A stretch of 23,715 nt of DNA from a virus. The stretch's first letter is position 1. Each line of letters begins with the position of its first letter. The notes under the pieces were generated by a model that was not told the DNA's origin, made no database searches, and was given only the letters and a program-made list of their open reading frames with translations. The stretch lies in the IMG/VR virus record IMGVR_UViG_3300007542_000183, positions 1-23,715 of that record, one strand, 5' to 3'. The position numbers and the translations under genes are program-made. Below, in pieces: positions 3,308-23,669 of this stretch.

Positions 3308-4063
3308 ATGCCAAGGATAAATGACTTAAAAGTAGGTGCTATCGAAAGAAGTCAAATTACCAATGTATCATTATCGAATTATTATCAAGTTCATATGACT
3401 GGACTTTCGGAAGGAAGTGGTCTTATGAAATTTCTTAAAAAATATGGATTAAAGGTGGATTGGTTGAGCAATAATCTTGGATTGATGTGTTCTGAGGCAA
3501 CACTTCCCACTAGTTCTCTTGCCACAGCAGAGGTAAAAGATAATTTTCATGGTATTAATGAGCAATATGCTCATACGAGATTATATACCGATAGTGATTT
3601 TACTTTTTATCTTGATGGGGATTATCGAGTTTTGAAATTTTTTGAGGGTTGGATAGATTATGTTGCCGGTGAAAATAATTATCCAGTGAATAAGCAAGGT
3701 GGTCAAGTTTCGGTAGCACATGATGGATATTATAAAAGATTCAATTATCCTTTAGATCCCATTGATGGGTATAAATTGGATGGACTGTATATAACAAAGG
3801 GTGAAAAAGATTCAAACGAAAGAGAGAGACCAATTATATCCTATAGATTTTTTCATGCTTTTCCTAAAGCAATTACTTCTATTCCAGTTTCTTATGGAAG
3901 TGCAGAAGTTTTAAGAGTTACAGTTTCTTTTGCTTATGATAGGTATATTGTTGAGCAATATAGAGGATGGAATAAAGGTCCTTTTCATGATTATCCTACT
4001 AATAAAACAGGATTGAACATTGATGGGGATGATCAAGTAGGTCTTCCTCCTGGCGTGGGGTAA
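3308..4063 (+). CDS. gp54: Baseplate tail-tube initiator, gp54-like
   Basis: The 251-aa protein has the tube-protein fold signature near its end: PIISYRFFHAFPKAITSIPV, then AEVLRVTVSFAYDRYIVEQY. That pattern is shared by T4 gp19, gp54 and gp48. The N-terminal part contains SNYYQVHMTGL and a 'CSEATLPTSSLATAEV' segment typical of tube subunits that must switch conformation. In T4, gp54 (320 aa) sits on the hub and starts tube polymerisation. Its place as first gene of the (+) hub operon, opposite gp4 and gp48, favours gp54 over the main tube protein gp19, but a tube-like paralogue remains possible. Start ATG 3308 is preceded by TTTAGG; no in-frame alternative start precedes it. Confidence 0.62.
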   Translation: MPRINDLKVGAIERSQITNVSLSNYYQVHMTGLSEGSGLMKFLKKYGLKVDWLSNNLGLMCSEATLPTSSLATAEVKDNFHGINEQYAHTRLYTDSDFTFYLDGDYRVLKFFEGWIDYVAGENNYPVNKQGGQVSVAHDGYYKRFNYPLDPIDGYKLDGLYITKGEKDSNERERPIISYRFFHAFPKAITSIPVSYGSAEVLRVTVSFAYDRYIVEQYRGWNKGPFHDYPTNKTGLNIDGDDQVGLPPGVG

Positions 4064-4095: not shown

Positions 4096-4818
4096 ATGCC
4101 TTTACCCAAGATTTCGACACCGACATATGAGTTGGAATTGCCTTCAAATGGAAAATTAATTAAATATCGTCCATTTCTTGTAAAAGAAGAAAAAATTCTT
4201 ATCATGGCACTGGAGAGTGAAGATCTTAAACAAATTTCAAATGCAATTAAAACTGTTATATCAGATTGTATTATTACAAGAGGAATTAAAGTAGATCAGT
4301 TATCAACTTTTGATATTGAATATTTGTTTTTAAATGTTCGTGCAAAATCCGTAGGAGAATCTGTAGAAGTAAGTGTAACATGTCCAGATGATGGAGAAAC
4401 ACAATTACAAGTTGAAATTGATATTGATTTAATTAAGGTTCAAAAGAATCCTAATCATAGTAATATTATTAAATTGGATGATAATCTTTCGGTTAAAATG
4501 AAATATCCATCTTTAAATCAATTTGTTGAAAGTAATTTTGAAGTTGATAATAAAAATGAACAAGTTGATAAGTCTATTCAAGTGATAGCATCTTGCATTG
4601 GTCAAGTATTTACTGATGAAGAATCTTGGGATGCTTCTGATTGTAGTAAGAAAGAATTGAATGATTTCATCGAGCAAATGAATACCAAACAATTTAAGAA
4701 AATTGAAGAATTCTTTAACACGATGCCAAAATTATCACATACAATTAATGTGAAGAATCCAAAGACAGGTGTGGAGTCAGAAGTTGTATTGGAAGGGTTA
4801 GCAAGTTTTTTCAGTTAG
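4096..4818 (+). CDS. gp26: Baseplate hub assembly protein gp26
   Basis: The 240-aa product resembles T4 gp26 (208 aa). It shows the family opening 'lP.P.Y.leLPs.g..i.yRPFlvkEEKiLl.A' (here TYELELPSNGKLIKYRPFLV, then KEEKILIMALESED) and the later CIITRGIKVDQLSTFDIEYL and VRAKSVGE segments. T4 gp26 is needed for hub assembly but was not located in the finished baseplate, so it is thought to act as a chaperone. The last sense codons are AGT TTT TTC AGT before TAG (4816-4818). The T TTT TTC heptamer can shift ribosomes into the gp51 frame, yielding a 301-aa gp26-gp51 fusion, like lambda G and G-T. It has its own late promoter (4062-4069). Confidence 0.88.
   Translation: MPLPKISTPTYELELPSNGKLIKYRPFLVKEEKILIMALESEDLKQISNAIKTVISDCIITRGIKVDQLSTFDIEYLFLNVRAKSVGESVEVSVTCPDDGETQLQVEIDIDLIKVQKNPNHSNIIKLDDNLSVKMKYPSLNQFVESNFEVDNKNEQVDKSIQVIASCIGQVFTDEESWDASDCSKKELNDFIEQMNTKQFKKIEEFFNTMPKLSHTINVKNPKTGVESEVVLEGLASFFS
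4791..4812 (+). promoter_or_regulatory. Probable -1 programmed ribosomal frameshift signal (gp26 to gp51)
   Basis: The heptamer T TTT TTC (4806-4812) is in the gp26 zero frame and fits X XXY YYZ exactly. A Shine-Dalgarno-like GGAAGGG (4791-4797) lies 8 bases upstream, similar to the stimulator of the dnaX frameshift site. The zero-frame stop follows one codon later. After slipping, translation continues CAG TTA GCG into the gp51 frame. I see no convincing strong hairpin downstream. Confidence 0.75.
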
Positions 4819-5000
4819 CGCTGGCTCATGAGAGTTTGGAAAATTATTACAAAACAAACTTTGCCTTGATTCAGCACCATAAATATTCATTGACGGAACT
4901 AGAAAATATGATACCTTGGGAAAGAGAAATATATGTTTCTCTTTTGCAACAATATATTGAGGAAGAAAATTTAAAACAGCAAAAACAGAGTGGTATTTAG
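4812..5000 (+). CDS. gp51: gp51-like hub assembly catalyst, expressed as a -1 frameshift extension of gp26
   Basis: After the slip site the -1 frame encodes 62 residues, beginning QLALAHESLENYYKTN and continuing with LTELENMIPWEREIYVSLL and a Glu/Lys/Gln-rich helix that ends at TAG 4998-5000. The 'l..LE.MIPWEReiYv.Ll...ieeE' pattern is typical of gp51 and of other phage tail-assembly chaperone C-terminal pieces. T4 gp51 catalyses hub assembly and is absent from the final structure. The frame is open only from 4749 and has no ATG or GTG before Met at 4908, which lies inside the conserved motif. A stand-alone gene is therefore unlikely; a TTG at 4836 lacks a usable ribosome-binding site. The next gene starts at GTG 4990, overlapping this stop. 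Confidence 0.75.
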   Translation, partial: QLALAHESLENYYKTNFALIQHHKYSLTELENMIPWEREIYVSLLQQYIEEENLKQQKQSGI

Positions 5001-6759
5001 TAGTCAAAGTTTTACGGCACCTACTTTAGATAAAAAACCAAAGTTGGGGAAGAAAATGATTTCTTCTTCAGTTTTTCGTGGTGCCTTTAAATCTATTGGA
5101 AAATCGACTACTATCAAAATTCCTAAAGGAATGCAAATAGGGGCAAGTAAGTCTTATGTTGATCCAAGTTATTTAAGAAAAGAAGAAAGCACGCCAATTG
5201 AACAAACATTAGTAGAAACAAACAATATTCTTATAGAAATACAAAATCAGTTAGCAACTGATTTTGCTTATAGGATTGCAAAAGAGAAAGAAGATATACA
5301 AAAAATAAAAATTACATCTGATAAGGAAAAAAAGAGTAGGGCAGAAGCAGGTGTAGAAAGTGTAAAAAAAATTGGTGGTTTTGTTAAAAATCAAGTTGAT
5401 AAAGTTACTACTCCTGTAAAAGGATTTTTTCAAAAAATACTTGACTTTTTTGGTGCCATTATTACTGGATTTGTAGTTAATAAGGCGATTGATTGGTTAA
5501 CAAAACCAGGTAATGCTGAAAAAATAGCGGGGATATTTACTTTTATTGGGAAACATTGGAAACCAATTCTTGCTGTTATTGGCGGTTTTCTTTTAACTAA
5601 TGTTGTATTAAAAATTTATCGATTATATAAACTTATCCGTGGAGCACTGAGACTTATTGGTATTGGTAGACGTGGTGCTGGTGCTGGTGCTGGTGATGCT
5701 ATAAGGAGAGGTGGTTTAATTAGAAATGCTGCCGGTGGTAGAAGAGGTGTTAATGTTGAGATGGAAAGAATTACCAGAGCAAAACCTGGTTCTGGTGGAC
5801 TACTTCATGAGAGAGTAGATGTATATAAGAGAACTAAAAATCCAGTAGCAAAGGCAGTTCAAAAAGCAGAAGTATTATCAAAGTTAGCTGGTAAAAAGGT
5901 AGTAAAAGCACTTGGTGCAAAAGGTCTCATGAAATTTTTGAGACCAGTATTTAAAAGAGTACCTGTATTTGGAGCACTAATTGATTTTGCCGTGTCTCTT
6001 GCTCTTGGAGAGCCAATAGGTAGGGCAGCAGCAAAGTCGGTTGGTATGTTGCTTGGTAGTGCTTTAGGAACATTAATTCCAATTCCTGGTGTTGGAACAT
6101 TTGCTGGGGGTTTACTTGGTGACTTTGTTGGTGGTAAAATTTACGATGCAATTGTTGGAGAAAAACAGGAAGATCCTTTAAAAATGAATAGAGGTGGTAT
6201 TGTTCCTGGACCCAATATTAATAAGGACATTGTGCCAATACTTGCTACTCCTGGAGAGGCTGTTGTCCCTAAAAAAGAAACAGCAAGATTTTCGGGATTT
6301 TTATCTGATATTATTAGTAATGGTGGAGAATTATTTGAGAAAATGTTTCTCTCATTGAGAAAACAAGAATATAATAATAATATATTTAAAGAAGCGAATG
6401 AAAAATTTGAAGAATCTATAGAAGTGCTTTCCAAGTACTTTAAAAAAGAAACATTAAAAGCGCTTGATCCCAACTTATATAATAAATTATATGGTGCCAT
6501 TGGAGGACCACGAGATTCAATGGCAAATAAATCTTTGAATCCTGTGAAGAAAAATACTTCAAACATGTCAATGAGATCTATGAATAGGTCTCCATCGATT
6601 ACAATGTTGCCTCCGATAAGTGCTGCCACTAATTTATCTGCTTCTAAAGTAAATTCAACACCCTCTGGTGGAGATTCGATAATTGCACTTGATGCAGAGG
6701 ATAATGATAATTTTTATGTTTCATACTACACTGCATCTTCTCTTGGATTGGGAGTGTAA
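4990..6759 (+). CDS. gp29: Tape-measure/baseplate hub protein, gp29-like
   Basis: The 589-aa length is almost that of T4 gp29 (590 aa), the tape measure that extends through the tube from the hub. Order of parts: basic N-terminus (to about 60), coiled-coil region with repeated Lys/Glu (about 75-135), a hydrophobic segment at 142-164 also present in the next protein, further hydrophobic stretches (about 185-215, 315-400, the latter very Gly/Ala-rich: LGSALGTLIPIPGVGTFAGG), then RGGIVPGPNINKDIVPILAT and PGEAVVPKKETARF. That last motif is common in tape-measure proteins. GTG 4990 overlaps the gp51 stop; ATG 5056, preceded by GGGGAAG, is a plausible alternative start giving 567 aa. Position right after gp26/gp51 matches the chaperone-then-tape order of many tailed phages. 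Confidence 0.78.
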   Translation: MVFSSQSFTAPTLDKKPKLGKKMISSSVFRGAFKSIGKSTTIKIPKGMQIGASKSYVDPSYLRKEESTPIEQTLVETNNILIEIQNQLATDFAYRIAKEKEDIQKIKITSDKEKKSRAEAGVESVKKIGGFVKNQVDKVTTPVKGFFQKILDFFGAIITGFVVNKAIDWLTKPGNAEKIAGIFTFIGKHWKPILAVIGGFLLTNVVLKIYRLYKLIRGALRLIGIGRRGAGAGAGDAIRRGGLIRNAAGGRRGVNVEMERITRAKPGSGGLLHERVDVYKRTKNPVAKAVQKAEVLSKLAGKKVVKALGAKGLMKFLRPVFKRVPVFGALIDFAVSLALGEPIGRAAAKSVGMLLGSALGTLIPIPGVGTFAGGLLGDFVGGKIYDAIVGEKQEDPLKMNRGGIVPGPNINKDIVPILATPGEAVVPKKETARFSGFLSDIISNGGELFEKMFLSLRKQEYNNNIFKEANEKFEESIEVLSKYFKKETLKALDPNLYNKLYGAIGGPRDSMANKSLNPVKKNTSNMSMRSMNRSPSITMLPPISAATNLSASKVNSTPSGGDSIIALDAEDNDNFYVSYYTASSLGLGV

Positions 6760-8274: not shown

Positions 8275-9590
8275 TGAATGCAGCACAAGCAAGTATATTT
8301 GAAGAATTTATAATTACATCTGATGACGGAAGTAATTCTGTAAATCTTTATGATGGTCAGATAAGAATTATTAGTTTTGATTACTTTGAATCTATATTAT
8401 CACCGTGCATTACTGGCACAATTATAATTTCTAGTGGATCTGATGCTGCTGTATCGAGGGAAGATCCCCAAAATAGAGTAGGAAGTATATTATCGCATTT
8501 ACCTCTTCGTGCAGGATCAATAATATCGACAAAAATACGCACAAAAAATGGAGTATTGAATTTTTCTGGAGATGATTATAAAGTTTTATATGTGACAAAG
8601 GTTGTTCCTCTAATCCAAGATTCTAATTCAGAAACAATATCTATAAAGTTTACATCTAAAATTGGATGGTTAAATGAAACTACCAGAATTACACGATCAT
8701 TTAATGGAAAAATTACCAAATCTGTAGAATCTATATTAACAAAAGAATTGGGTATAAAATCTAATAAAATTTTTATTGAAGAAGCAATCAATAGTCTCAC
8801 ATTTACTGGAATGAGAAAGAGACCATTTGATTTATTAATAGGACTTTTATTAAAACAATCTATACCCCCCAATACAGTAAATCCTGGTTATTTTTGTTAT
8901 GAAACAAAGAGTGGATTTAATTATGTTTCTATTGATACTTTGATAAATCGAGAGGAATTTAAAATTCCTTATGAATATAATGGCAAAAATATATCATCTT
9001 TTGAAACTAAAGATGACAGTGCTGATTTTAAGGTAGCAACATTTTCGACAGAAAAAGATCAAGATTTGTTGATGCAAATTAGATCTGGAATGTATGCTAC
9101 AAAAAATTTATTTTTCAATCCACTAACTTTTAAATTTACCGAAATTGACATATCTGTGATAACAAATTCAAAGTTTTCTTCATTGGGTAAAAAACAAAAA
9201 CTTCCAAGAATTTTAGATCAAGATTTCAATGAGGGGAAAAAATATCATCGAGTTCAGTCTGCTATCCTAGATATAGGAAGTAATACAGAAGAAAAAACTC
9301 AAAATAATAATCCAGAACTTTACTATGCAGCAGGAACTACTAGATATAATGCATTATTTTCTCAAATTCATAATGTAACAATTCCATCAAATATTTTACT
9401 TGAAGCTGGAGATTCGATTATTTTAAATATTGAAAGTATATCTAATGATAAGGTGCAAGGTGTTGATCAAGTTAAAAGTGGTAAATATATAATTAGGGGA
9501 ATAAGGCATCATTTTACTCCTAAAGTATCTACTACTGGATTAAAACTTATTCGCGATTCTTATGGATTACATTTTAGTAAGAGCAAATAA
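8274..9590 (+). CDS. gp27: Baseplate central hub protein, gp27-like
   Basis: The 438-aa protein fits gp27 (391 aa in T4), the trimeric torus at the centre of the baseplate onto which gp5 docks. Features: FIITSDDGSNSVNLYDGQIR followed by FDYFESILSPCITGTIIIS (a first tube-like domain), an inserted alpha/beta part with SVESILTKELGIKSNK, RPFDLLIGLLL, and 'YFCYETKSGFNYVSIDTLI', and a C-terminal domain ending GKYIIRGIRHHFTPK. The GYxFyEt.sGf.f.Sid.L pattern is widespread in gp27/gpD/VgrG-type hub proteins. It overlaps both neighbours by one base in TAATG junctions, suggesting translational coupling with the M23-bearing protein upstream and the gp5-like protein downstream. Confidence 0.82.
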   Translation: MNAAQASIFEEFIITSDDGSNSVNLYDGQIRIISFDYFESILSPCITGTIIISSGSDAAVSREDPQNRVGSILSHLPLRAGSIISTKIRTKNGVLNFSGDDYKVLYVTKVVPLIQDSNSETISIKFTSKIGWLNETTRITRSFNGKITKSVESILTKELGIKSNKIFIEEAINSLTFTGMRKRPFDLLIGLLLKQSIPPNTVNPGYFCYETKSGFNYVSIDTLINREEFKIPYEYNGKNISSFETKDDSADFKVATFSTEKDQDLLMQIRSGMYATKNLFFNPLTFKFTEIDISVITNSKFSSLGKKQKLPRILDQDFNEGKKYHRVQSAILDIGSNTEEKTQNNNPELYYAAGTTRYNALFSQIHNVTIPSNILLEAGDSIILNIESISNDKVQGVDQVKSGKYIIRGIRHHFTPKVSTTGLKLIRDSYGLHFSKSK

Positions 9591-10102
9591 TGGAAGGACT
9601 AAATTCGGCACAATTTAATTTTTATGGTTTGGGGACAAATGAGTGGATAGGTATGATATTGCCCTTTGAATCCCAAAAAGATCAATCTACGGGAAAGAAA
9701 GGATTTGGTTTTCGTTATCGAGTGGCTATTATGGGTTATCATCCACTTGATAATAGTATAACTGATGAAGAAATTACTTATGCCATAACTGGATTCTCAC
9801 CTGCTGATGGCGGCGGCGGTGGATCGTGTTATAAAACATCTAAATTGACTCAAGGAGATGTTGTTTTGGGTAAATTTTTAGATGGTGATAATAAACAATT
9901 GCCAATTATATTGCATGTTTTATGTAGAACGTCTGATATACAATATGGATATGGATCTGGTAGATTTGATCCAAAAACTGGATTTGTTGGAAGTAGAAAA
10001 AAGACATCATTAACAAAAAATCAAGAAACATGTGAACAAAAAGGAATATGCACGCCAAGACTAATACCTGGGAATGGGAAACAAGGTAGAACATCTCCAT
10101 AA
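9590..10102 (+). CDS. gp5: gp5-like spike OB-fold subunit without lysozyme domain
   Basis: The 170-aa product corresponds to the N-terminal OB-fold domain of T4 gp5 (575 aa). It shows WIGMILPFES, GFRYRVAIMGYHPLD, and 'YAITGFSPADGGGGG' with GDVVLGKFLDGDNKQLPIIL, the usual V.V.ihG.H......lPwa....p....G.....l..G..V.v.FldGd...PiVlg pattern. The OB domain plugs the hub trimer and connects to the spike. The T4 lysozyme domain and the C-terminal beta-prism are missing: the protein ends after a Lys/Gly-rich tail containing two Cys (TCEQKGICTPR). A separate beta-prism-like gene lies at 11613-12143. The start overlaps the gp27 stop. Confidence 0.78.
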   Translation: MEGLNSAQFNFYGLGTNEWIGMILPFESQKDQSTGKKGFGFRYRVAIMGYHPLDNSITDEEITYAITGFSPADGGGGGSCYKTSKLTQGDVVLGKFLDGDNKQLPIILHVLCRTSDIQYGYGSGRFDPKTGFVGSRKKTSLTKNQETCEQKGICTPRLIPGNGKQGRTSP

Positions 10103-10118: not shown

Positions 10119-11609
10119 ATGTCAGTTTGTGCAGATCCTATCAGTAATACATCTGGTCATGTAGTAATTCTTCCAGATCCTTGTAAAGATAATACCTTTG
10201 CGAAGGCAGAAGCATATCTGGAAAACTTTTTTGCTTTGGTAACAAAACCACTTGATTCATCCTCAAGTTTAGATCAAGAATTGAAAAAAACCGTGAAACT
10301 TCTTTCTATTGGTATGAAAGGTTTTGTAAATTCTGTTGTGGGAAGATTTCAAGATGAATTGATTGAAAGAATAAAAGGTGGACTTGCAGGACTGGAAAAT
10401 GCAGTTAGATCTTCATATAAAGGAAATGAATTATTCAAAGCTCTTGATGAATTAGCAAAAAAACAAGGCGCTCAAATTGATCCAGTTGATAATCTGTTTA
10501 AGGCACTTGCTTGTTTGGCAAATAAGGTTACGGATGCCGCAGAAAAAATATTCACTGATTTGCTATCACAAGCAGTAAAAAATGTATTGAATGTCCCTAT
10601 TTGTGCAGTTGAGCAAATATTGGGTGCATTTACTAATAAGATGATAGATATCATTGAGAGCACCGTTTCACCAATATTGGAACCGATTAAGAATGCATTA
10701 GAATTTGTTTTTGATGTAAGAGATTTTCTTGTTGGTGTAGTGAAAACATTGAGAAAGGTTGAAAATCTTTTAAATTGTAATGAGAAGAAAAAGTGTCCTC
10801 CATCTACAAAATATAAAATCAATCAAGGATTGTTGAGAGATAGGGGAGAAGGAGAGCAGAAAGACGCCTTTGATAGAATATTTGCAAAAGGAGCACTGTC
10901 AAGAGGTGCTGCAAATCTTGCAAATGATTTTGAAAATCAATATGGATCATGGTCTATATTTGGCGAGACCCTAGAAAATGCTGATCCAAATTCGGGTTGT
11001 TATACTGGAAATGTTGTCAGTTGTGGCACACCAAATGTAGAATTTTTTGGTGGTGATGGTGCAGGAGCATTTGGAAGAGTAATACTTGGCAATATTATTA
11101 ATGAAGTTGATAGTGAAGGTGTAATTGATTCTGCACAAAGGACTGCAAGTATTGTTGGTGTAGAAATTCAAGATCCCGGAAGTGGATATACAACTCCACC
11201 AATTGTATCTTTTACTGATGCATGTGATAAGGGATATGGTGCATATGGCAGAGCAAACATAGATACAAATCCTAGTTCTCCAACTTATGGTCAAGTTACT
11301 TCTATAAGTATTATTAGTAAAGGAGAAAATTACCCAACGGAAGGTCTTATTGAAGATCCATTATACATTGAAGATATTGTAATTGAAAATCCCGGATCTG
11401 GATACTCTGAAGGTGATTCTGCTCAAGGGATTAAATTAACAATTCGTGATGGTCAAATTGTTGACACTGAAATTGAAAACTTAGGATACAATGGATTGCC
11501 TGACCTAAATATCAACAGTAACACTGGGTTTGGAGCTGTGCTAAGACCAATAATGGCAGTTGTTCCGCCACAGAGAGAAGTTATTCAAGTTATAGATTGT
11601 GTGAGGTAA
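10119..11609 (+). CDS. Structural protein of the spike/baseplate region with PGSGY repeats
   Basis: The 496-aa protein is not assigned to a T4 gene. Residues 1-240 are predicted mainly helical and amphipathic (for example LKKTVKLLSIGMKGFVNSVV), and include several Cys residues (CADP, LPDPCKD, ALACLANK, VPICAVEQ, LNCNEKKKCPP). Residues of about 340-470 hold four copies of a beta repeat: VEIQDPGSGYTTPPIVSF (near 348), SIISKGENYPTEG (near 394), IVIENPGSGYSEGD (near 422) and IENLGYNGLPD (near 454). Such 'v.v.npGsGY..pP.v.f' repeats recur in cyanophage structural and fibre proteins, including the 1020-aa protein downstream. It lies between the split gp5 OB part and the gp5C-like part, so a hub or spike-associated location is likely. 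No ribosome-binding site is clear. Confidence 0.65.
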   Translation: MSVCADPISNTSGHVVILPDPCKDNTFAKAEAYLENFFALVTKPLDSSSSLDQELKKTVKLLSIGMKGFVNSVVGRFQDELIERIKGGLAGLENAVRSSYKGNELFKALDELAKKQGAQIDPVDNLFKALACLANKVTDAAEKIFTDLLSQAVKNVLNVPICAVEQILGAFTNKMIDIIESTVSPILEPIKNALEFVFDVRDFLVGVVKTLRKVENLLNCNEKKKCPPSTKYKINQGLLRDRGEGEQKDAFDRIFAKGALSRGAANLANDFENQYGSWSIFGETLENADPNSGCYTGNVVSCGTPNVEFFGGDGAGAFGRVILGNIINEVDSEGVIDSAQRTASIVGVEIQDPGSGYTTPPIVSFTDACDKGYGAYGRANIDTNPSSPTYGQVTSISIISKGENYPTEGLIEDPLYIEDIVIENPGSGYSEGDSAQGIKLTIRDGQIVDTEIENLGYNGLPDLNINSNTGFGAVLRPIMAVVPPQREVIQVIDCVR

Positions 11610-15884: not shown

Positions 15885-18800
15885 ATGGCAAAATATTTAA
15901 GCGGAAGAGTAAAAAGAAAAGAACAATCCAAAGTAGCAATTTCTACGGATCGCTACCGTTATCTTGGACTTAATGAAACTGAACCAAATTTAGGTGATCC
16001 TCTTTCCGGGACATTTCAAGACACTCCACCTGCTGGTACAAGATATCAAATAGTTTCCGTTGAAGGATATCCTGGAGAAAGATATTGGATTCCTGTTGAG
16101 GGTGGAATCATTCCAGGATCTATTACTGTCTATGATGAATCTACTAAACTTGTTGGTAATATTAGTAGTATAACTCAACTCAATTTTATTGGTGCTGCTA
16201 TAACTGCAACATCAGATTCATTTAAAGAAACAACATTAACTTTAAGTGGCAATCATAGTTTTTCTGTTGGTTTAGGTATTACACAGGGTAACAATAATGT
16301 TACTGGTTTTGTAAAATATTCTACAACAACAGTTGGATATGTTACTGTCACTAATGTTGAGGGATCGTTTGCTCAAAATGCAAGTGATGAAATTTATGAG
16401 GATGGAGTAACCACTGGATTAACCGTAGATTCTTTATCTTCGATTATTGAGACTGGAGTTAAAGCAGACATAACTGTTTCTCCACAATTCTTTTCTGAAA
16501 ATAAAGAATTAATATTTAATGATAATGGGGAATTTAATGGTGCTAGTGTTTATTGGGATAAGTCTAATACACGATTAGGTATTAATAGTAGTGATCCTGC
16601 ACATACTTTAGATGTTACAGGAGATATTGATGTAAGTGGTAGCATTAAAGTTGGAGCAACTATCTATGATAGTGATGGTGATCCAGGAACTGACGGGCAA
16701 ATTCTTGCGAAGGGAGCAGGAAATCCTGGGACAATAGATTGGGTTCGTTTGGAATCTATTATTACTGGTGCTGGTGGAACAATTGGTAATATTCAGTTTC
16801 ATGGCACTACTGGATTGGTTCAGGGTGATAATGAATTAAATTTCAATCCTTATAATGAGTTTATTGGTATTGGTACTAATGATCCGGCACAGAAGTTTCA
16901 AGTTGGAGTAGATGGAAAAAGATATACAACAAAGAAATTAACTTTAGATAGTGCTATAGGTGATAATTATAGTGCAGGAGATTTAGTTCAATTGAGAACG
17001 GCAGCTTCTCCATTTGGACTGCAGGATATATTTGGAACTCTTGTATATGATGTGCCTTCTGCCGGAACAGCACTAACGGTTAGAAATAGTAATTACGAAA
17101 CAAAAGGAACTCAATGGAGTTCTTTTACTGGTAATGGGTATAGAATATACTTTAATAACACTCTTTTAGCTACTGGCAGGTATATAACTTCTGTTGCAAA
17201 TGATGCCACCATACCAGAAACTACCTACGAGGGAGATGATGTCTTTGTAGTTACTAGCACTGGTGATGTTGGTATTGGCACAGTAAATCCAAGGACAAAG
17301 AGAGATTCTACGACAGTTAATTTAGATGTTGTCGGTGATGTTTTATTTAAAGGTGATAATAACTATGATCTTCACTGGGACAAGAGTGCTTATAGTTTAA
17401 TACTTGATGATAATGCCAAGTTTGCTGCAGGCACTGACTCTGATTTAGAAATATATCATAATGGCACTACTGGATATATTGATAATAAGACTGGACATTT
17501 ATATATTAGAAATGCTGGGTCAAATATTAATTCAAACATTTATATTCAGGCAAGAAGTGGAGAAAATAGTATTATTTGTAACGATGATGCTGGCATAGAT
17601 CTTTATTATAATAATAGTAGAAAAGCATATACAGATATCAGTGGTTTTCGTATAGATGGTAGATTATATGTTGATCACAGCACATCAGAGTTTCATGGAG
17701 ATGTAAGATTTGATGGAAATACTGCTGGTCGTGATATTTACTTTGATGTGAGTGAAAACTCTTTATATGCTTATGATAATGCAGAATTTCGTGTAGGGAC
17801 AACTGCCGACCTACGAATTTACCATGATTCTACACTCACCAAAACATATGTTGGGTTAGATTCTAGTGGTGGTAAGACATTAGACTTCGTTTCTTTTGAT
17901 AATAATCTTGGCATAAGCACTGCCATGAGAGTGACACATGTTAATAGTGGAGATAATTATAATACTTATGTAAATCTATACTATAATGGAGTTGAAAAAT
18001 TAGAAGTAACGGAAAATGGTATTGATGTAACGGGTCATGTAGAAACCGATACATTAAATGTTTCTTCTGCATCAACTATTTCTAATATTAAGATTGGTGG
18101 TCTTGGTGGAAATCTTTCTAATACAATAGATACAACTTCTGGAAATTTAATTATTAATGCTCAAGGTGGTTCTAATACAATTGTTACTGATAGCGAACTG
18201 CAAATTAATAGTACTGAACCAACCACTGGTAATAATGATGGTGCTTTAATTGTTGCTGGTGGTGTTCATATCAGAAGTGATTTGATATTATGTAATGATC
18301 CTGATATCGTGGATACTATTGACCCCGTTAAAGTTGGTATTGCAACAAGAACTCCTGTTGATAGACTTCAAATAGGATCACGGAACGAATTTATACCAGT
18401 TGTAAATACAAATACTGGAGATCTTGCTGCTCCTGTTGGTGGTTTGGGTACCAATGAAATTACTGGAATCACAATATCTGGATCTGGTATTGTATTGGGA
18501 CAAGAAGTAAAATCTGGATTCCATACAGTTGGCACGAAGATTTCAAATATTGTTGGAAATACAATTATTGTTGATACTTATGCAACTAATACTGTAGCAC
18601 AAACTAATGTTCCTATTACTTTTGGTATAAGAAATGATAGTGCTGTTATTGCTATTGGACAAACCGGTTCTGTTGGAATAGGCACTACAAGTGCCGAAGC
18701 AAAATTAGATGTTCGTGGTAATTTACAAGTTACTGGAATTGCATCAGTCAGTGAAACTATAAAAGTTGGTGCGGCTGTAACGATTTCATCAAGTGGAGAT

Positions 18801-21800
18801 ACATTCATATCTGGTATCACATCTGTAGGCACTGGTGTGACCATTACTCCATCTAATGGAGGTATTGCCGTCACCGGAATTATAACAGCAACTGGTGGAT
18901 TTATTGGCACAGTTAATAGTAGTGATATTGTTGGTGATATAACAGCAACTAATATTAATGTTACCGAAGAAAGTACTGATGCCGAGTGTAATATAGTTTT
19001 TGTAACCGCATCTAATGGAATTCTTCCACCAAAAACTAATGCCAACTTAACTTATGATTCAAGTACTGGAAAATTGCAATCTGCTAGTTTTGAGGGTGAT
19101 GGATCTTTACTGACTGGTGTTATTGGTGTAGGCACTGGCGTTGAACTTCAATCAAATGGAACTTCGGTTGGAGCTGCAGCAACAATTAATTTTAGTGGAG
19201 GATTTAATGTATTACTTTCTACTTCAAGTGGTGTTGCGACAGTAACTCCAACAGCAACGGATAGAAGTGTTTTCTCTCATTATTCTGATTATGCAAGTCA
19301 TAGTGAAACATCAAATTATGCATACGGTATTGTAGGTATTGCAAACACTTCTTACAATGAAGTAGGAATACTTACTGCAAATTCATCTTCTGCAGATAGT
19401 TTTGGATGGTCAGTAGCAACCAGTGCTGATGGCAAGACTATTGTTGTTGGAGATCGCTTTGGTGATGGTAATGCAACAGATTCAGGCGCAGTTTATGTCT
19501 TTGATCGTGAAGGAAATACCTATAGTCAAGTAGGTGTCTTGACAGGTTCTTATTCTACCGATAATTATGATAATTTTGGACAAGCAGTAGCAACCAGTGC
19601 CGATGGTAAGACCATTGTTGTTGGTGCTTTTGATGATGAAACTTCTGGCACTACTGGTTATGGTCTTGTTTATGTTTATGATCGTGTTGGAAATGACTTT
19701 AATGAAGTAGCAATTTTAACTGGTTCTTATGCCACCGAATCTTTTGATTACTTTGGATGGTCAGTAGCAACCAGTGCCGATGGTAATACTATTATTGTTG
19801 GTGCTTATGGTGATGAAACTTCTGGCACTACTGGTCATGGTCTTGTTTATGTTTATGATCGTGTTGGAAATGACTTTAATGAAGTAGCAATTTTAACAGC
19901 ATCTGATCAAGGTGCAGGTGATTCTTTTGGACAGGATGTTGCATGTAGTGTTGATGGTAAGACTATTGTTGTTGGTGCTGGTGGTCATGACGATCTTTCG
20001 GGACATACATCTTCAGGCGCAGTTTATGTCTTTGATCGTGTTGGAGATGATTTTAATGAAGTAGGAATTTTAACAGCATTTGACAGTAATAATTACTACT
20101 TTTTTGGAAATGAAGTAGCAACTAGTGCTGATGGCAAAACTATTTTTGTTGGTAGAAGTTCTATTTCTGCTAATCAACCTGGTGCTGTTTATGTTTATGA
20201 TCGTGTTGAAAATGACTTTAATCAAGTAGGAATTTTAACAGGTTTTTATGCCGATGATGATGATCAATTTGGGATCTCTGTGGCATGTAGTGCCGATGGT
20301 AAGACGATTATTGTAGGAGCTCAAAGTGATGAGTATCCTGGTTCTGGCAATGGTTCTGGTCTCGTTTATGTTTTTAATCGTCAGGGAAACAACTTTAATG
20401 AAGTAGGAATTCTCACCGGATCTTATGCTTCTAATACTGGTGATTATTTTGGACATTCTGTAGCAACCAGTGCCGATGGTAAGACCATTATCGTTGGTGC
20501 TTACAATGATGAGATTAATAGTGAACAAGGTCTTGTTTATGTTTTCGATCAAAATGTAAATACAAAATCACTTTTAAGGACTATAGATGAAAAAAATATA
20601 ATTATAGAATCTAATTTAACAGTAACGGGTGATATTAAAGGAACTGCAGATAATGCCGATAGAAGTATTTTCTCTTCCTATTCCGATTATGCAAGTCATA
20701 GTGAAACATCAAATGGATCTTATAATCTTGTAGGTATTGGATCAACTTATATTGAAGTAGGTGCTATAGAACTTGATAATCCTAACTCTAACGATGAATT
20801 TGGACACACAGTAGCAACCAGTGCTGATGGTAAGACCATTATCGTTGGTGCTCCCGATCATGATACTAATTCATTATCAAATGTAGGTGCAGTTTATGTC
20901 TTTGATCGTGAAGGAAATACTTATAGTCAAGTAGGTTTCTTTACTGGTTCTTATGCTACCAGTAGCAGCGATTATTTTGGACAAGAAATTGCATGTAGTG
21001 CCGATGGTAAAACCATAGTTGTTGGCAACCAATATAGTGAATTACCAGGATCGGAGTCGAATAGTGGACTTGTTTATGTCTTTGATCGTGTTGGAAATGA
21101 TTTTAATGAAGTCGGTATCTTAACCGGTTCTTATGCTTCTCAAAATAGTGATAATTTTGGATCGTCAGTAGCAACCAGTGCCGATGGTAAGACTATTGTT
21201 GTTGGTGCTCTTCTGGATGAGAAGGGTGTTGATAGTGTTGATGGCGGAGGTGTAGTTTATGTCTTTGATCGTGTTGGAAATGATTTTAATGAAGTAGGTA
21301 TTCTAACAGTATCAAGTGGTGCATTTGTTTTTGATTATTTTGGATATTCTGTAGCAACCAGTGCCGATGGTAAGACTATTGCTGTTGGTGCGTATGGTGA
21401 TGAAAGTGGCGTAACAGTAACTGATGTAGGTGCAATTTATGTCTTTGATCGTGTTGGAAATGATTTTAATCAAGTAGGTATTCTAACAGCATCTTACGAT
21501 ACCGTGCGCTATGACTTTGGACGCGAAGTAGCAATCAGTGCCGATGGTAAGACTATTATTGGTAGTGCTTATTATGAGTCTGGGACCGGTGATCCTACTA
21601 AAGGCACTGTTCATGTCTTTGATCGTGTTGGAAATGATTTTAATGAAGTAGGTATTCTAACAGCAGGAACTGAATATGCTGATAATCATGATTATTTTGG
21701 ATGGTCAGTTGCATGTAGTGCCGATGGTAAGACTATTTTTGTTGGTGCTCCCAATGATGAATATTCATCTACTTTTACTACTGGCATTGTTCATGTTTTT

Positions 21801-22415
21801 AATCGTCAGGGAAATAACTTTAATAAAGTAGGTATTATAACCGGTTCTTATGCTACTAATCTTGCTGATAAATTTGGATACGCAGTGGCATGTAGTGCAG
21901 ATGGTAAGTCTGTTATTGCTTCTGCTCTCAATGATGAGATTGGAGGTACTAGTGCTGCCGGTGTCGTTTATGTCTTCGATCAAACAACAGTTGCCAGAGA
22001 TGCAATTACGGCAACAGATACTGGTGTTTTAATTACCGGAGATCTCAATGTAACTGGTGATATTACTGCATTCTATACTTCTGATGAAAGATTAAAGGAT
22101 AATATCACTCCAATTGATGATCCTTTGGCAAAGGTAATATCAATTAGTGGTAACACATTCGATTGGAATCAAAATTCCAATAAGTCTGGTCATGATGTTG
22201 GTGTTATTGCACAAGAAATAAAAGAAATTCTGCCAGAAGCTGTTACTGAAAGAGATAATGGGTATCTTGCGGTTGATTATTATAAAGTAATTCCTCTCCT
22301 AATTGAGGCAATCAAGGAACTTTCTGAAGATAGAAATATCATAACTTCTAAAAACGGAGTTAAGTATCGTTTCGTTGTTGACGATGATGGAAACCTATCA
22401 ACTGAGAAGGTCTAG
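15885..22415 (+). CDS. Giant tail fibre with two FG-GAP-type beta-propellers and S74 chaperone domain
   Basis: The 2176-aa fibre is likely the main receptor-binding appendage. Order: basic N-terminal adaptor (MAKYLSGRVKRKEQ, about 1-120); fibre shaft repeats such as TRLGINSSDPAHTLDVTGDI (near 225), IGIGTNDPAQKFQV (near 325) and VGIGTTSAEAKLDVRG (near 930); a block of DLEIYHNGTTGYI-type repeats (about 480-700); two propellers of seven blades each at about 1160-1557 and 1625-2033, each blade reading FG.sVA.SADGKTI.VGA...G.VYVFDR.GN.FNEVGILT; then the intramolecular chaperone of endosialidase (S74) from about 2063: TSDERLKDNITPID, GVIAQEIKEILPEAV and YYKVIPLLIEAIKEL. S74 domains trimerise the fibre and usually cut themselves off before the Ser of SD (here S2066). 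The start ATG is two bases after the preceding stop. Confidence 0.88.
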   Translation: MAKYLSGRVKRKEQSKVAISTDRYRYLGLNETEPNLGDPLSGTFQDTPPAGTRYQIVSVEGYPGERYWIPVEGGIIPGSITVYDESTKLVGNISSITQLNFIGAAITATSDSFKETTLTLSGNHSFSVGLGITQGNNNVTGFVKYSTTTVGYVTVTNVEGSFAQNASDEIYEDGVTTGLTVDSLSSIIETGVKADITVSPQFFSENKELIFNDNGEFNGASVYWDKSNTRLGINSSDPAHTLDVTGDIDVSGSIKVGATIYDSDGDPGTDGQILAKGAGNPGTIDWVRLESIITGAGGTIGNIQFHGTTGLVQGDNELNFNPYNEFIGIGTNDPAQKFQVGVDGKRYTTKKLTLDSAIGDNYSAGDLVQLRTAASPFGLQDIFGTLVYDVPSAGTALTVRNSNYETKGTQWSSFTGNGYRIYFNNTLLATGRYITSVANDATIPETTYEGDDVFVVTSTGDVGIGTVNPRTKRDSTTVNLDVVGDVLFKGDNNYDLHWDKSAYSLILDDNAKFAAGTDSDLEIYHNGTTGYIDNKTGHLYIRNAGSNINSNIYIQARSGENSIICNDDAGIDLYYNNSRKAYTDISGFRIDGRLYVDHSTSEFHGDVRFDGNTAGRDIYFDVSENSLYAYDNAEFRVGTTADLRIYHDSTLTKTYVGLDSSGGKTLDFVSFDNNLGISTAMRVTHVNSGDNYNTYVNLYYNGVEKLEVTENGIDVTGHVETDTLNVSSASTISNIKIGGLGGNLSNTIDTTSGNLIINAQGGSNTIVTDSELQINSTEPTTGNNDGALIVAGGVHIRSDLILCNDPDIVDTIDPVKVGIATRTPVDRLQIGSRNEFIPVVNTNTGDLAAPVGGLGTNEITGITISGSGIVLGQEVKSGFHTVGTKISNIVGNTIIVDTYATNTVAQTNVPITFGIRNDSAVIAIGQTGSVGIGTTSAEAKLDVRGNLQVTGIASVSETIKVGAAVTISSSGDTFISGITSVGTGVTITPSNGGIAVTGIITATGGFIGTVNSSDIVGDITATNINVTEESTDAECNIVFVTASNGILPPKTNANLTYDSSTGKLQSASFEGDGSLLTGVIGVGTGVELQSNGTSVGAAATINFSGGFNVLLSTSSGVATVTPTATDRSVFSHYSDYASHSETSNYAYGIVGIANTSYNEVGILTANSSSADSFGWSVATSADGKTIVVGDRFGDGNATDSGAVYVFDREGNTYSQVGVLTGSYSTDNYDNFGQAVATSADGKTIVVGAFDDETSGTTGYGLVYVYDRVGNDFNEVAILTGSYATESFDYFGWSVATSADGNTIIVGAYGDETSGTTGHGLVYVYDRVGNDFNEVAILTASDQGAGDSFGQDVACSVDGKTIVVGAGGHDDLSGHTSSGAVYVFDRVGDDFNEVGILTAFDSNNYYFFGNEVATSADGKTIFVGRSSISANQPGAVYVYDRVENDFNQVGILTGFYADDDDQFGISVACSADGKTIIVGAQSDEYPGSGNGSGLVYVFNRQGNNFNEVGILTGSYASNTGDYFGHSVATSADGKTIIVGAYNDEINSEQGLVYVFDQNVNTKSLLRTIDEKNIIIESNLTVTGDIKGTADNADRSIFSSYSDYASHSETSNGSYNLVGIGSTYIEVGAIELDNPNSNDEFGHTVATSADGKTIIVGAPDHDTNSLSNVGAVYVFDREGNTYSQVGFFTGSYATSSSDYFGQEIACSADGKTIVVGNQYSELPGSESNSGLVYVFDRVGNDFNEVGILTGSYASQNSDNFGSSVATSADGKTIVVGALLDEKGVDSVDGGGVVYVFDRVGNDFNEVGILTVSSGAFVFDYFGYSVATSADGKTIAVGAYGDESGVTVTDVGAIYVFDRVGNDFNQVGILTASYDTVRYDFGREVAISADGKTIIGSAYYESGTGDPTKGTVHVFDRVGNDFNEVGILTAGTEYADNHDYFGWSVACSADGKTIFVGAPNDEYSSTFTTGIVHVFNRQGNNFNKVGIITGSYATNLADKFGYAVACSADGKSVIASALNDEIGGTSAAGVVYVFDQTTVARDAITATDTGVLITGDLNVTGDITAFYTSDERLKDNITPIDDPLAKVISISGNTFDWNQNSNKSGHDVGVIAQEIKEILPEAVTERDNGYLAVDYYKVIPLLIEAIKELSEDRNIITSKNGVKYRFVVDDDGNLSTEKV
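19350..21985 (+). repeat. Fourteen ~180-bp repeats forming two seven-blade propellers
   Basis: Two arrays of seven units each (about 19350-20555 and 20750-21985) repeat at 165-190 bp intervals. Each unit contains near-identical DNA such as GTAGCAACCAGTGCCGATGG and GATCGTGTTGGAAATGA. Each array is introduced by the same 30-bp sequence (19287-19316 and 20685-20714, identical), which encodes DYASHSETSN. The highest local identity is the 86-bp pair 19635-19720 and 19812-19897 with one mismatch. Confidence 0.9.
19635..19897 (+). repeat. 86-bp direct repeat pair in blades 2 and 3
   Basis: Bases 19635-19720 and 19812-19897 are identical except for one position (GGTTATGG versus GGTCATGG). The 177-bp offset equals one propeller blade (59 residues), so this is a recent blade duplication or gene-conversion tract. 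Confidence 0.88.
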
Positions 22416-22909: not shown

Positions 22910-22924
22910 TGACCTGAACCCAAT

Positions 22925-22996
22925 GGGAATATAGCTTAATGGTTAGAGCGGCCTGCTTATAACGGGTTAGTCTGGGTTCAACTCCCAGTATTCCTA
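22925..22996 (+). tRNA. tRNA-Ile (anticodon UAU)
   Basis: Cloverleaf: acceptor GGGAATA (22925-22931) with TATTCCT (22989-22995), discriminator A 22996; D arm GCTT/GAGC; anticodon stem GCCTG/CGGGT with loop CTTATAA, so the anticodon is TAT (22958-22960) and reads AUA; four-base variable loop; T arm CTGGG/CCCAG with loop TTCAACT. The first acceptor pair is G-U. No CCA is encoded. AUA is common in the AT-rich late genes, which fits a codon-supply role. Confidence 0.9.
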
Positions 22997-23012
22997 TTAA
23001 CTCATAACTTTT

Positions 23013-23019
23013 CTAAATA
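23013..23019 (+). promoter_or_regulatory. Possible late promoter (CTAAATA) before the HNH gene
   Basis: TTCTAAATAGTTA (23011-23023) is the same 13-mer as the minus-strand box before gp48. It lies in the loop of a small inverted repeat, ATAACT (23004-23009) with AGTTAT (23019-23024), 26 bp from the ATG. The tRNA-Ile promoter could also read through into this gene. Confidence 0.4.
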
Positions 23020-23045
23020 GTTATGTAAATATTCATAACACCATT

Positions 23046-23489
23046 ATGTTTAAACTAATTTCAACTTGTAAGGGTTGTGGATGTGAAATTATTAATGAGA
23101 GAGAAACTAAGGGGCGCCTCAAAACTTGGTGTAGCGATAAATGTAGACATCAATGGCGTTATCAAAACGATCCAAAATACAAAACAAGTCAACAACAAAG
23201 AAATACCTATGATAGGCAAAAGAGAGTTGCCTATGAGAGAAAGTGGTCAGCAATACAATCAAAAGGTGGAAAGTGTCAACAATGTGGTGAAAGTAGACCC
23301 GCAATGCTATGCTTTCACCACAGAAACCCATCAGAGAAAAAAATTAGACTAGATTCTAGAAGATTTAGTAATACAAATCTTAAATTACTCCTAGAAGAAG
23401 TTGACAAATGCGACCTTCTATGTCATAATTGTCATCAAGAACTCCACAACGCTGATGGGTGGAAAGAGTTCTTTAATAAGCAGGTTTAG
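23046..23489 (+). CDS. HNH homing-type endonuclease located between tRNA genes
   Basis: The 147-aa protein has an N-terminal Cys cluster (C8, C11, C13, C29, C33: CKGCGCE and WCSDKC) that looks like a small zinc ribbon. A basic linker follows (about 35-75), then an HNH nuclease domain: GGKCQQCGESR (C77, C80), LCFHHRNP (H91, H92), and CDLLCHNCHQELHN (C126, C129, N128, H130, H134). The four Cys probably bind structural zinc and the His/Asn form the metal-dependent nicking site. Free-standing HNH genes are mobile elements in T-even phages and often sit in intergenic or tRNA regions. The last ten bases of the gene, including TAG, form the 5' end of the next tRNA, so precise insertion upstream of that tRNA is likely. 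Confidence 0.85.
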   Translation: MFKLISTCKGCGCEIINERETKGRLKTWCSDKCRHQWRYQNDPKYKTSQQQRNTYDRQKRVAYERKWSAIQSKGGKCQQCGESRPAMLCFHHRNPSEKKIRLDSRRFSNTNLKLLLEEVDKCDLLCHNCHQELHNADGWKEFFNKQV

Positions 23490-23553
23490 CAATCTGGTTG
23501 AATGCTCCGTTCTCATAAAGCGGCTAAGGTGGGTTCAATTCCCTCAACCTGCA
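23480..23553 (+). tRNA. tRNA-Met or tRNA-Ile2 (anticodon CAU)
   Basis: Acceptor GCAGGTT (23480-23486) pairs with AACCTGC (23546-23552), discriminator A 23553. D arm GCAA/ATGC; anticodon stem CCGTT/AGCGG with loop CTCATAA (anticodon CAT 23514-23516); variable CTAAG; T arm GTGGG/CCCTC contains a T-T mismatch at the second pair. The first pair is G-C, so it is not a typical bacterial initiator tRNA (C1-A72). Elongator Met and lysidine-modified Ile2 cannot be separated here. The 5' ten bases overlap the HNH gene. Confidence 0.85.
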
Positions 23554-23582
23554 TTGACCATTAACACTCTTTGAGTTATAAT
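23554..23582 (+). promoter_or_regulatory. Sigma70-type promoter for tRNA-Leu
   Basis: TTGACC (23554-23559) directly follows the discriminator base of the previous tRNA. TATAAT (23577-23582) is 17 bp downstream. The tRNA-Leu begins 13 bp after the -10 box. Confidence 0.85.
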
Positions 23583-23595
23583 GGTCTCATATCAC

Positions 23596-23669
23596 GGGAG
23601 TGTATTCCAACAGGCAGAGAAAATCGACTTAAAATCGATCCAGTGTGGGTTCGAATCCCACCACTCCTA
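23596..23669 (+). tRNA. tRNA-Leu (anticodon UAA), short variable loop
   Basis: Acceptor GGGAGTG (23596-23602) pairs with CACTCCT (23662-23668), discriminator A 23669. Anticodon stem ATCGA/TCGAT holds loop CTTAAAA, anticodon TAA (23630-23632), which reads UUA. T arm GTGGG/CCCAC with loop TTCGAAT. The variable loop is only five bases (CCAGT), whereas bacterial tRNA-Leu normally has a long variable arm. The D stem is weak (three pairs), and the first acceptor pair is G-U. Confidence 0.8.

Follow-up and report, generated by a model that had tools for sequence, protein, structure and literature searches.

A conserved slippery heptamer and a probable -1 frameshift joining gp26 to a gp51-like tail in T4-like phages

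In phage lambda, the genes for the tail assembly chaperones gpG and gpGT lie between those for the tail tube and the tape measure protein, and their slip site is unlike the T TTT TTC considered here. A comparable locus is found in the IMG/VR virus record IMGVR_UViG_3300007542_000183, from which a 23.7-kb stretch of DNA (hereafter the window, meaning the whole stretch analysed) was studied: gp26 is followed there by a gp51-like tail in the -1 frame, and the locus likewise stands between the tail tube gene and a gene proposed to encode a tape measure protein. The protein family differs from that of lambda, as the gp26 of the window belongs to PF12322. For T4-like phages, the link with tail chaperones was reportedly published by Vladimirov, Gautam & Davidson in 2022 (Virology 566:9-15), in a paper on T4-like tail assembly chaperones.

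The lambda-type G-T frameshift is described, in a passage of one paper, as widely conserved "except T4" (PMC5009743). In T4, gp26 and gp51 are presented in an excerpt of another paper as hub assembly chaperones, gp51 being absent from the final particle (PMC3004832); they have domains and a tail homologous to those of the window, but T4 uses two genes where the window uses one. A passage on PRFect states, from Vladimirov et al., that the short gene of some T4-like phages is accompanied by a longer, fused one (PMC10885494). Another -1 frameshift of a tail assembly chaperone at a poly-T tract is that of phage Adele (Vandenendeviridae / Andersonviridae), although the phage families are different and the motif is GTTTTT, not T TTT TTC; according to the relevant passage, this frameshift was deduced from conservation, and Vladimirov et al. 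are cited there for poly-T -1 signals in the T4-like short chaperone gene (PMC12846349).

In the window, gp26 and the gp51-like tail are very probably one gene, which would be read in two ways through a -1 slip to give a short and a long chaperone. The 3' end of gp26 reads GAA GGG TTA GCA AGT TTT TTC AGT TAG, the stop TAG occupying positions 4816-4818. The initial annotation had located the gp26 frame, and the heptamer in the zero-frame X XXY YYZ register, correctly in both coordinates and letters (Table 1). It was equally right that GGAAGGG lies 8 bases 5' of the heptamer and that the -1 frame opens from 4749; this frame terminates at TAG 4998-5000. The 301-residue fusion that it proposed agrees with the reading frames (239 + 62 residues, junction QLALAHES). 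Read from 4809, the -1 frame extension matches phrog_634, annotated as "baseplate hub assembly catalyst" (E 3.4e-30), and the C-terminal columns of phrog_150 (E 1.6e-7). The window is AT-rich, and the heptamer as a bare string is common in it (20 occurrences vs 13.7 expected). When the reading frame is respected, the 18 open reading frames (7546 codon positions) contain a single T TTT TTN, 3 nucleotides (nt) ahead of the stop of gp26. Heptamers of the A and mixed types are found in frame elsewhere in the window (e.g., A AAA AAG twice), all at least 24 nt from any stop. Both gp26 and the junction are identical in four metagenome contigs.

The conservation of the junction was assessed on 258 gp26 loci: the window, 80, 80, 2, 78, 1 and 3 loci from viral contigs, and 13 from phage records. 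These loci are a sample, since two of the viral-contig scans contributed their best 80 each and a gp26 match is present in 1301 phage records; a few phages entered twice. The gp26 of T2 and of Aeromonas phage 25 (two-gene phages) and the gp51 loci stand outside the set, and 11 additional phages were examined apart from it. Once 11 incomplete loci were dropped, 247 usable loci remained, with 159 cluster representatives.

Aligned across these relatives, as the initial annotation had proposed, the junction keeps an in-frame T TTT TT(C/T/A) followed by an open -1 frame in 240 of the 247 loci and in 156 of the 159 representatives, the last base of the heptamer being C in 214 loci, T in 19 and A in 7. 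In 146 of the 156 slip representatives the heptamer is placed at -10 relative to the stop. The seven loci that lack it are VAP7 (two entries), K397, Campylobacter phage CP21 (two entries) and two other Campylobacter phages. Among the additional phages, T TTT TTC is present in six (Aeh1, PX29, 65, S13, ACP17 and S-PM2), the other five being Ackermannviridae. Conservation of the heptamer goes far beyond chance. It was also observed that some marine loci (7/247; L165, L166 and L167 among them) have T TTT TTA in the same place, the A-site codon being one for Leu.

The choice of codons points the same way. In the near set (66 representatives, the window counted), the two Phe codons of the slip site are TTT in 66/66 and TTC in 66/66, i.e., 100%, against 53-95% at nine other conserved Phe columns. 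The sole other invariant column among 97 conserved degenerate columns is that of Leu3 (TTA). Other Phe-Phe pairs, taken from stop-to-stop frames of the flanks in all six frames, some of them non-genes, are encoded by T TTT TTC in about 4% of cases (32/855). Judging from these codons, the heptamer and the -1 relation are kept beyond amino-acid constraint, the Ackermannviridae-like and Campylobacter phages excepted.

Two further signals surround the heptamer. On its 5' side, a Shine-Dalgarno-like (SD-like) word lies 8-9 nt away in 138 of the 156 slip representatives, and none was found in 8. The conserved Glu of this word is encoded by GAG in 82% of the near set; of ten other conserved Glu columns, nine have GAG in 6-29% and one in 70%. 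Hence, an upstream SD-like stimulator at a dnaX-like spacing is present as a putative element. On the 3' side, folding was measured as local energy relative to shuffles (z) at several offsets in the 156 slip representatives. The minimum occurs right after the heptamer (mean -1.93, and -1.47 ten bases on), whereas offsets clear of the heptamer give values from -0.8 to +0.5; by group, the mean is -2.68 in the near set and -2.40 in the P-HM1 group (n=43). Pairing probability climbs about 6 nt 3' of the heptamer, where many near relatives have a predicted stem-loop. The commonest stem has 17 doubly changed cells vs 6.4 in shuffles (0/500 as high) and pairs 74% of cells, against 26-44% for slid controls. 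A simple stem-finder separated the site poorly from control offsets (at least 9 pairs in 51/156 at the site and in 226/1248 at the controls) and, therefore, the shuffled-energy profiles were used.

The gp51 proteins of T4-type phages bear directly on what the tail is. Residues 1-201 of T4-type gp51 match PF12322, i.e., the gp26 family (E 1e-55), residues 3-248 match columns 13-280 of phrog_150, and a profile comparison of gp26 with T4-type gp51 gives E 1.8e-13, with an alignment running to the end of gp26. The last ~45 residues match the -1 frame tail (Aeromonas phage 25, E 1.6e-9; T2, E 1.9e-4; search size 1000). By these profile matches, T4-type gp51 is a gp26 paralogue over its first ~200 residues with the same tail attached. 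In T2 and in Aeromonas phage 25, gp26 and gp51 are two genes on opposite strands, and the end of T2 gp26, which is outside the above counts, has no such heptamer. In the Campylobacter phages CPt10 and CP220 a gp26-like domain and the gp51 tail share one frame of 244 amino acids. A separate short gp26-like gene was noted elsewhere in CPt10 and in CP21; the long gene of CP21 is split by a 1-nt difference relative to related phages, natural or due to a sequencing error. Among 12 virus records, a short and a long copy were found in three T4-like and two Campylobacter phages, and a single gp26 in seven; in 5 of these 7 the tail was detected right past gp26 at E<=0.01, and for the two remaining types it was seen by translation in ValKK3, related to the Vibrio record, and in VAP7.

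Short and long forms that share an N-terminal domain are thus represented both by the predicted products of the window (240 and 301 residues) and by the natural in-frame long forms of T4-type and Campylobacter phages. In the proposed mechanism, most ribosomes would end at the gp26 TAG and yield the short chaperone, and a minority would slip -1 on T TTT TTC, so that the 62-residue gp51 tail is added and the long form is made. The SD-like element on the 5' side would promote the slip, as would the stem-loop that many near relatives have ~6 nt downstream. By analogy with lambda gpG/gpGT, (i) many short and few long copies would coat the tape measure protein; (ii) the tail of the long form would recruit the tail tube; and (iii) both forms would depart before the virion is completed. 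We infer the slippage itself, its rate and the binding partners.

Of the structural models, that of gp26 points to a possible chaperone fold. The gp26 model (mean pLDDT, the predicted local distance difference test score, 87.9) gave in a second look 3fgx, 2ob9, 3klu and 5ir0 as the top four entries (Z 8.1, 7.9, 7.3 and 5.2; residues 1-96), the next row being unrelated (Z 4.2). Of these, 2ob9 is the HK97 tail assembly chaperone, and 3fgx, 2ob9 and 3klu are named as tail assembly chaperones in a passage of PMC9603447. In its best matches, the modelled N-terminal domain of gp26 thus resembles solved tail assembly chaperones. The model of T4-type gp51 has its elements arranged in almost the same order, with three helices added at the C-terminus, and its Foldseek matches among viral models are mostly other gp51 and gp26 proteins. 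Profile searches of PDB sequences with gp26 and T4-type gp51 returned no credible relative. The gp26/gp51 pair most likely works like lambda gpG/gpGT, an analogy that the initial annotation had drawn and that gains support from the conservation of the slip site, the homology with gp51 and the resemblance of the gp26 N-domain model.

Several observations weigh against the frameshifted-chaperone reading. With regard to the signals, the GAG bias is not seen in the P-HM1 group (38% vs 28-51%); the stem signal is absent in the distant metagenomic set C (36 representatives, mean z -0.05); two of six slid stem controls have 24 and 26 doubly changed cells, exceeding the 17 of the commonest stem; and in the window itself the stem is weak (z +0.57 over the first 40 nt, and -2.5 over the 70 nt from +5), its 80-nt fold of -15.8 kcal/mol being marginal (z -1.46). 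As for the fold, Foldseek found no PDB match to the gp26 model at E<=0.001 (2ob9 appeared at rank 12, with a probability of 0.60), and the second look at the T4-type gp51 model listed no chaperone, the best entry being unrelated (Z 4.9). Genetic studies cited in an excerpt of PMC3004832 support gp26 as a part of the hub, unlike a pure chaperone. The next gene, called tape-measure-like by the initial annotation, fits by position, but its profile support is weak: the 589-residue product matches phrog_934 (tail length tape measure) at E 0.0012, and endolysin-annotated families or families of unknown function score better; hence, the tape measure assignment, based on position and profile matches, is weak.

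The remaining two points concern translation. In 52 of the 66 near-set representatives an ATG begins 2 nt after the gp26 stop, with an SD-like word at none of them, which leaves room for separate gp51 synthesis. Besides, seven Ackermannviridae-like phages (VAP7, K397, SP1, T765, phiDP10.3, ChubbyThor and YC; L278-L281, L283, L084 and L088) keep the tail in the -1 frame with the canonical heptamer absent. K397, whose record is unclassified, was placed with them by the tree. Their pre-stop sequence is NTT TTY in six and GCT TTC in YC, and the junction is TAATG in five and TAATT in two; they may use either a start overlap (reinitiation) or a non-canonical slip. SH-Ab 15599, filed in the Ackermannviridae, has T TTT TTT and falls outside the clade of the seven.

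These last observations bring in the explanation that survives best among the alternatives, namely that a short gp51 is translated separately, by termination-reinitiation or from its own start just past the stop, and that the poly-T is incidental. The post-stop ATG of the near set, the 30 of 156 slip representatives in which an ATG is backed by an SD-like word, the Ackermannviridae-like phages (five of them with TAATG) and the separate gp51 genes called by annotators would all suit it. Nevertheless, the window lacks such a start: the absence of ATG and GTG from its -1 frame before MIPWEREIY, claimed by the initial annotation, was confirmed, and the two TTG codons of this frame (4836 and 4866) have no SD-like word. 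The claim of a gp51 without a start codon stands for the window, then, but not for the family. Among the slip representatives, 20/156 have no ATG and 4/156 none of ATG, GTG and TTG. In the near set the heptamer is kept in 66/66 vs 52/66 for the ATG, and SD-backed ATG codons number 0/66. Where the commonest stem exists, the ATG sits in its 5' arm. A gp51 with a conserved start and ribosome-binding site and with no slip site was sought in the sampled relatives, as the case that would contradict a frameshift; the opposite was found, the slip site being kept and an SD-backed ATG not. In addition, T4-type gp51 and the Campylobacter phage protein are naturally fused to a gp26-like domain, and the codon invariance at the heptamer is left unexplained. 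Separate gp51 synthesis cannot explain the heptamer, though it may occur in some relatives or as a minor route; as a replacement for frameshifting, it is improbable.

Less probable still, and by a wide measure, is that the -1 shift stems from the RNA polymerase, by transcriptional slippage on the T run, and not from the ribosome. The signal is indeed a T run, which reaches eight T in C48C1 and Melnitz, but in the window and the T TTT TTC loci it counts six, which is short for polymerase slippage, and the zero-frame register, the upstream SD-like word and the downstream stem found in part of the family suit ribosomes better. That the frame break is an indel artefact, from an assembly error or a decaying gene, has a negligible probability and, for the window, was already refuted by conservation: a 1-nt difference does split the long gene of CP21, but the same -1 relation and heptamer recur in isolates and many metagenome contigs, including the four with the window's gp26 and junction unchanged.

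As to how widely the -1 slip extends and how it arose, the Aeh1 locus (L269, 1501-2447) has T TTT TTC and a gp51 tail, unannotated, in the -1 frame. This phage is listed without gp51 in a passage of PMC3037559, and the unannotated tail would explain that listing. An unannotated -1 frame tail after T TTT TT(C/T) was likewise observed in Cronobacter phage S13 (L272), avDM12 (L086) and Atu_ph04 (L091). In a tree of 36 gp26-family proteins, the short and long copies of the T-even phages form sister groups (84/89) and the Campylobacter copies are unplaced, on long branches; the tree, therefore, does not settle the order of events. Tentatively, with a probability somewhat short of even, a single gene with a -1 slip could be ancestral across T4-type myoviruses, its T-run heptamer, SD-like word and stem being kept in place while the sequence changes. 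Within that same tentative reading, duplication would have taken the place of the slip twice, in T-even phages and independently in Campylobacter phages; the Ackermannviridae-like phages would have replaced it by a start overlap or a non-canonical NTT TTY slip; and phages of the Aeh1 type, reported to be devoid of gp51, would carry it unannotated in the -1 frame.

The surrounding genes follow a T4-like cyanophage-type order: single-stranded DNA-binding protein, baseplate wedge, tail tube cap, DNA end protector, head closure and then, according to the window profile matches, tail tube, gp26, tail genes and fibres. Among the named phages of the phage collection, Synechococcus phage S-SKS1 has the closest gp26 (67.9%). 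No second match to phrog_150 was found among the other scanned proteins of the window, the record being a partial one. The features of the locus are collected in Table 1. Further along the window, two consecutive open reading frames (9590-10102 and 10119-11609) each match a separate part of the family phrog_1922 (baseplate hub and tail lysozyme), a pattern resembling a split gp5. A fibre-like protein of 2176 amino acids (15885-22415) has 13 FG-GAP_2 repeat stretches and a C-terminal Peptidase_S74 domain (chaperone of endosialidase), and its gene contains two tandem arrays (19568-20241 and 21072-21750) with periods of 177 and 183 bp. Finally, an HNH endonuclease gene lies amid three tRNA genes (Ile tat, Met cat and Leu taa) at 22924-23669.

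Table 1. Features of the gp26 locus in the window, with the Campylobacter phage loci used for comparison.
Feature	Position	Strand	Basis or remarks
Virus record window	23.7 kb, partial record		T4-like cyanophage-type
Tail tube protein	3308..4063	+	directly 5' of gp26; PF23849 E 5e-21, phrog_45 E 2e-33
gp26 open reading frame, 240 aa, predicted short tail assembly chaperone form (gpG-like, TAC-N)	4096..4818	+	PF12322 E 6e-76, phrog_150 E 2.5e-81
SD-like element GGAAGGG (putative)	4791..4797	+	sequence; 8 nt before heptamer
Slippery heptamer T TTT TTC	4806..4812	+	gp26 frame, one codon ahead of stop
-1 frame extension, 62 codons + stop, gp51-like tail (predicted fusion gpGT-like, TAC-NC)	4812..5000	+	
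Predicted long hairpin 3' of slip site, weak in window	4820..4875	+	folding
Next gene, 589 aa, tape-measure-like	4990..6759	+	position, weak profile matches
Campylobacter phage loci	L258/L259 1501-2235; L257 1501-2088; L273		

In short, the frameshifted tail chaperone scheme is known from other tailed phages, the T4-like case has probably been noted before, and the window is a well-supported, clear new example of it. The literature search found no paper devoted to gp26/gp51 frameshifting in cyanophages, the paper of Vladimirov et al. (2022) lying outside that search. The parts of the literature searched did not mention the spread over 156 representatives, the SD-like word and the stem as signals, the fusion in Campylobacter phages or the case of Aeh1; the 2022 paper may hold some of these. 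The tie between the hub catalyst genes of T4 and the general tail chaperone system, put forward by the initial annotation, is therefore supported but not new, judging by the title of that paper and by those citing it.

Since the general scheme is already in print, the gain lies mostly in scope, annotation and testable signals. In some records (those of Aeh1, S13, avDM12 and Atu_ph04) the tail is unannotated, and in slip-type phages what is annotated 3' of gp26 as a "baseplate hub assembly catalyst" gene is probably a C-terminal extension of gp26.
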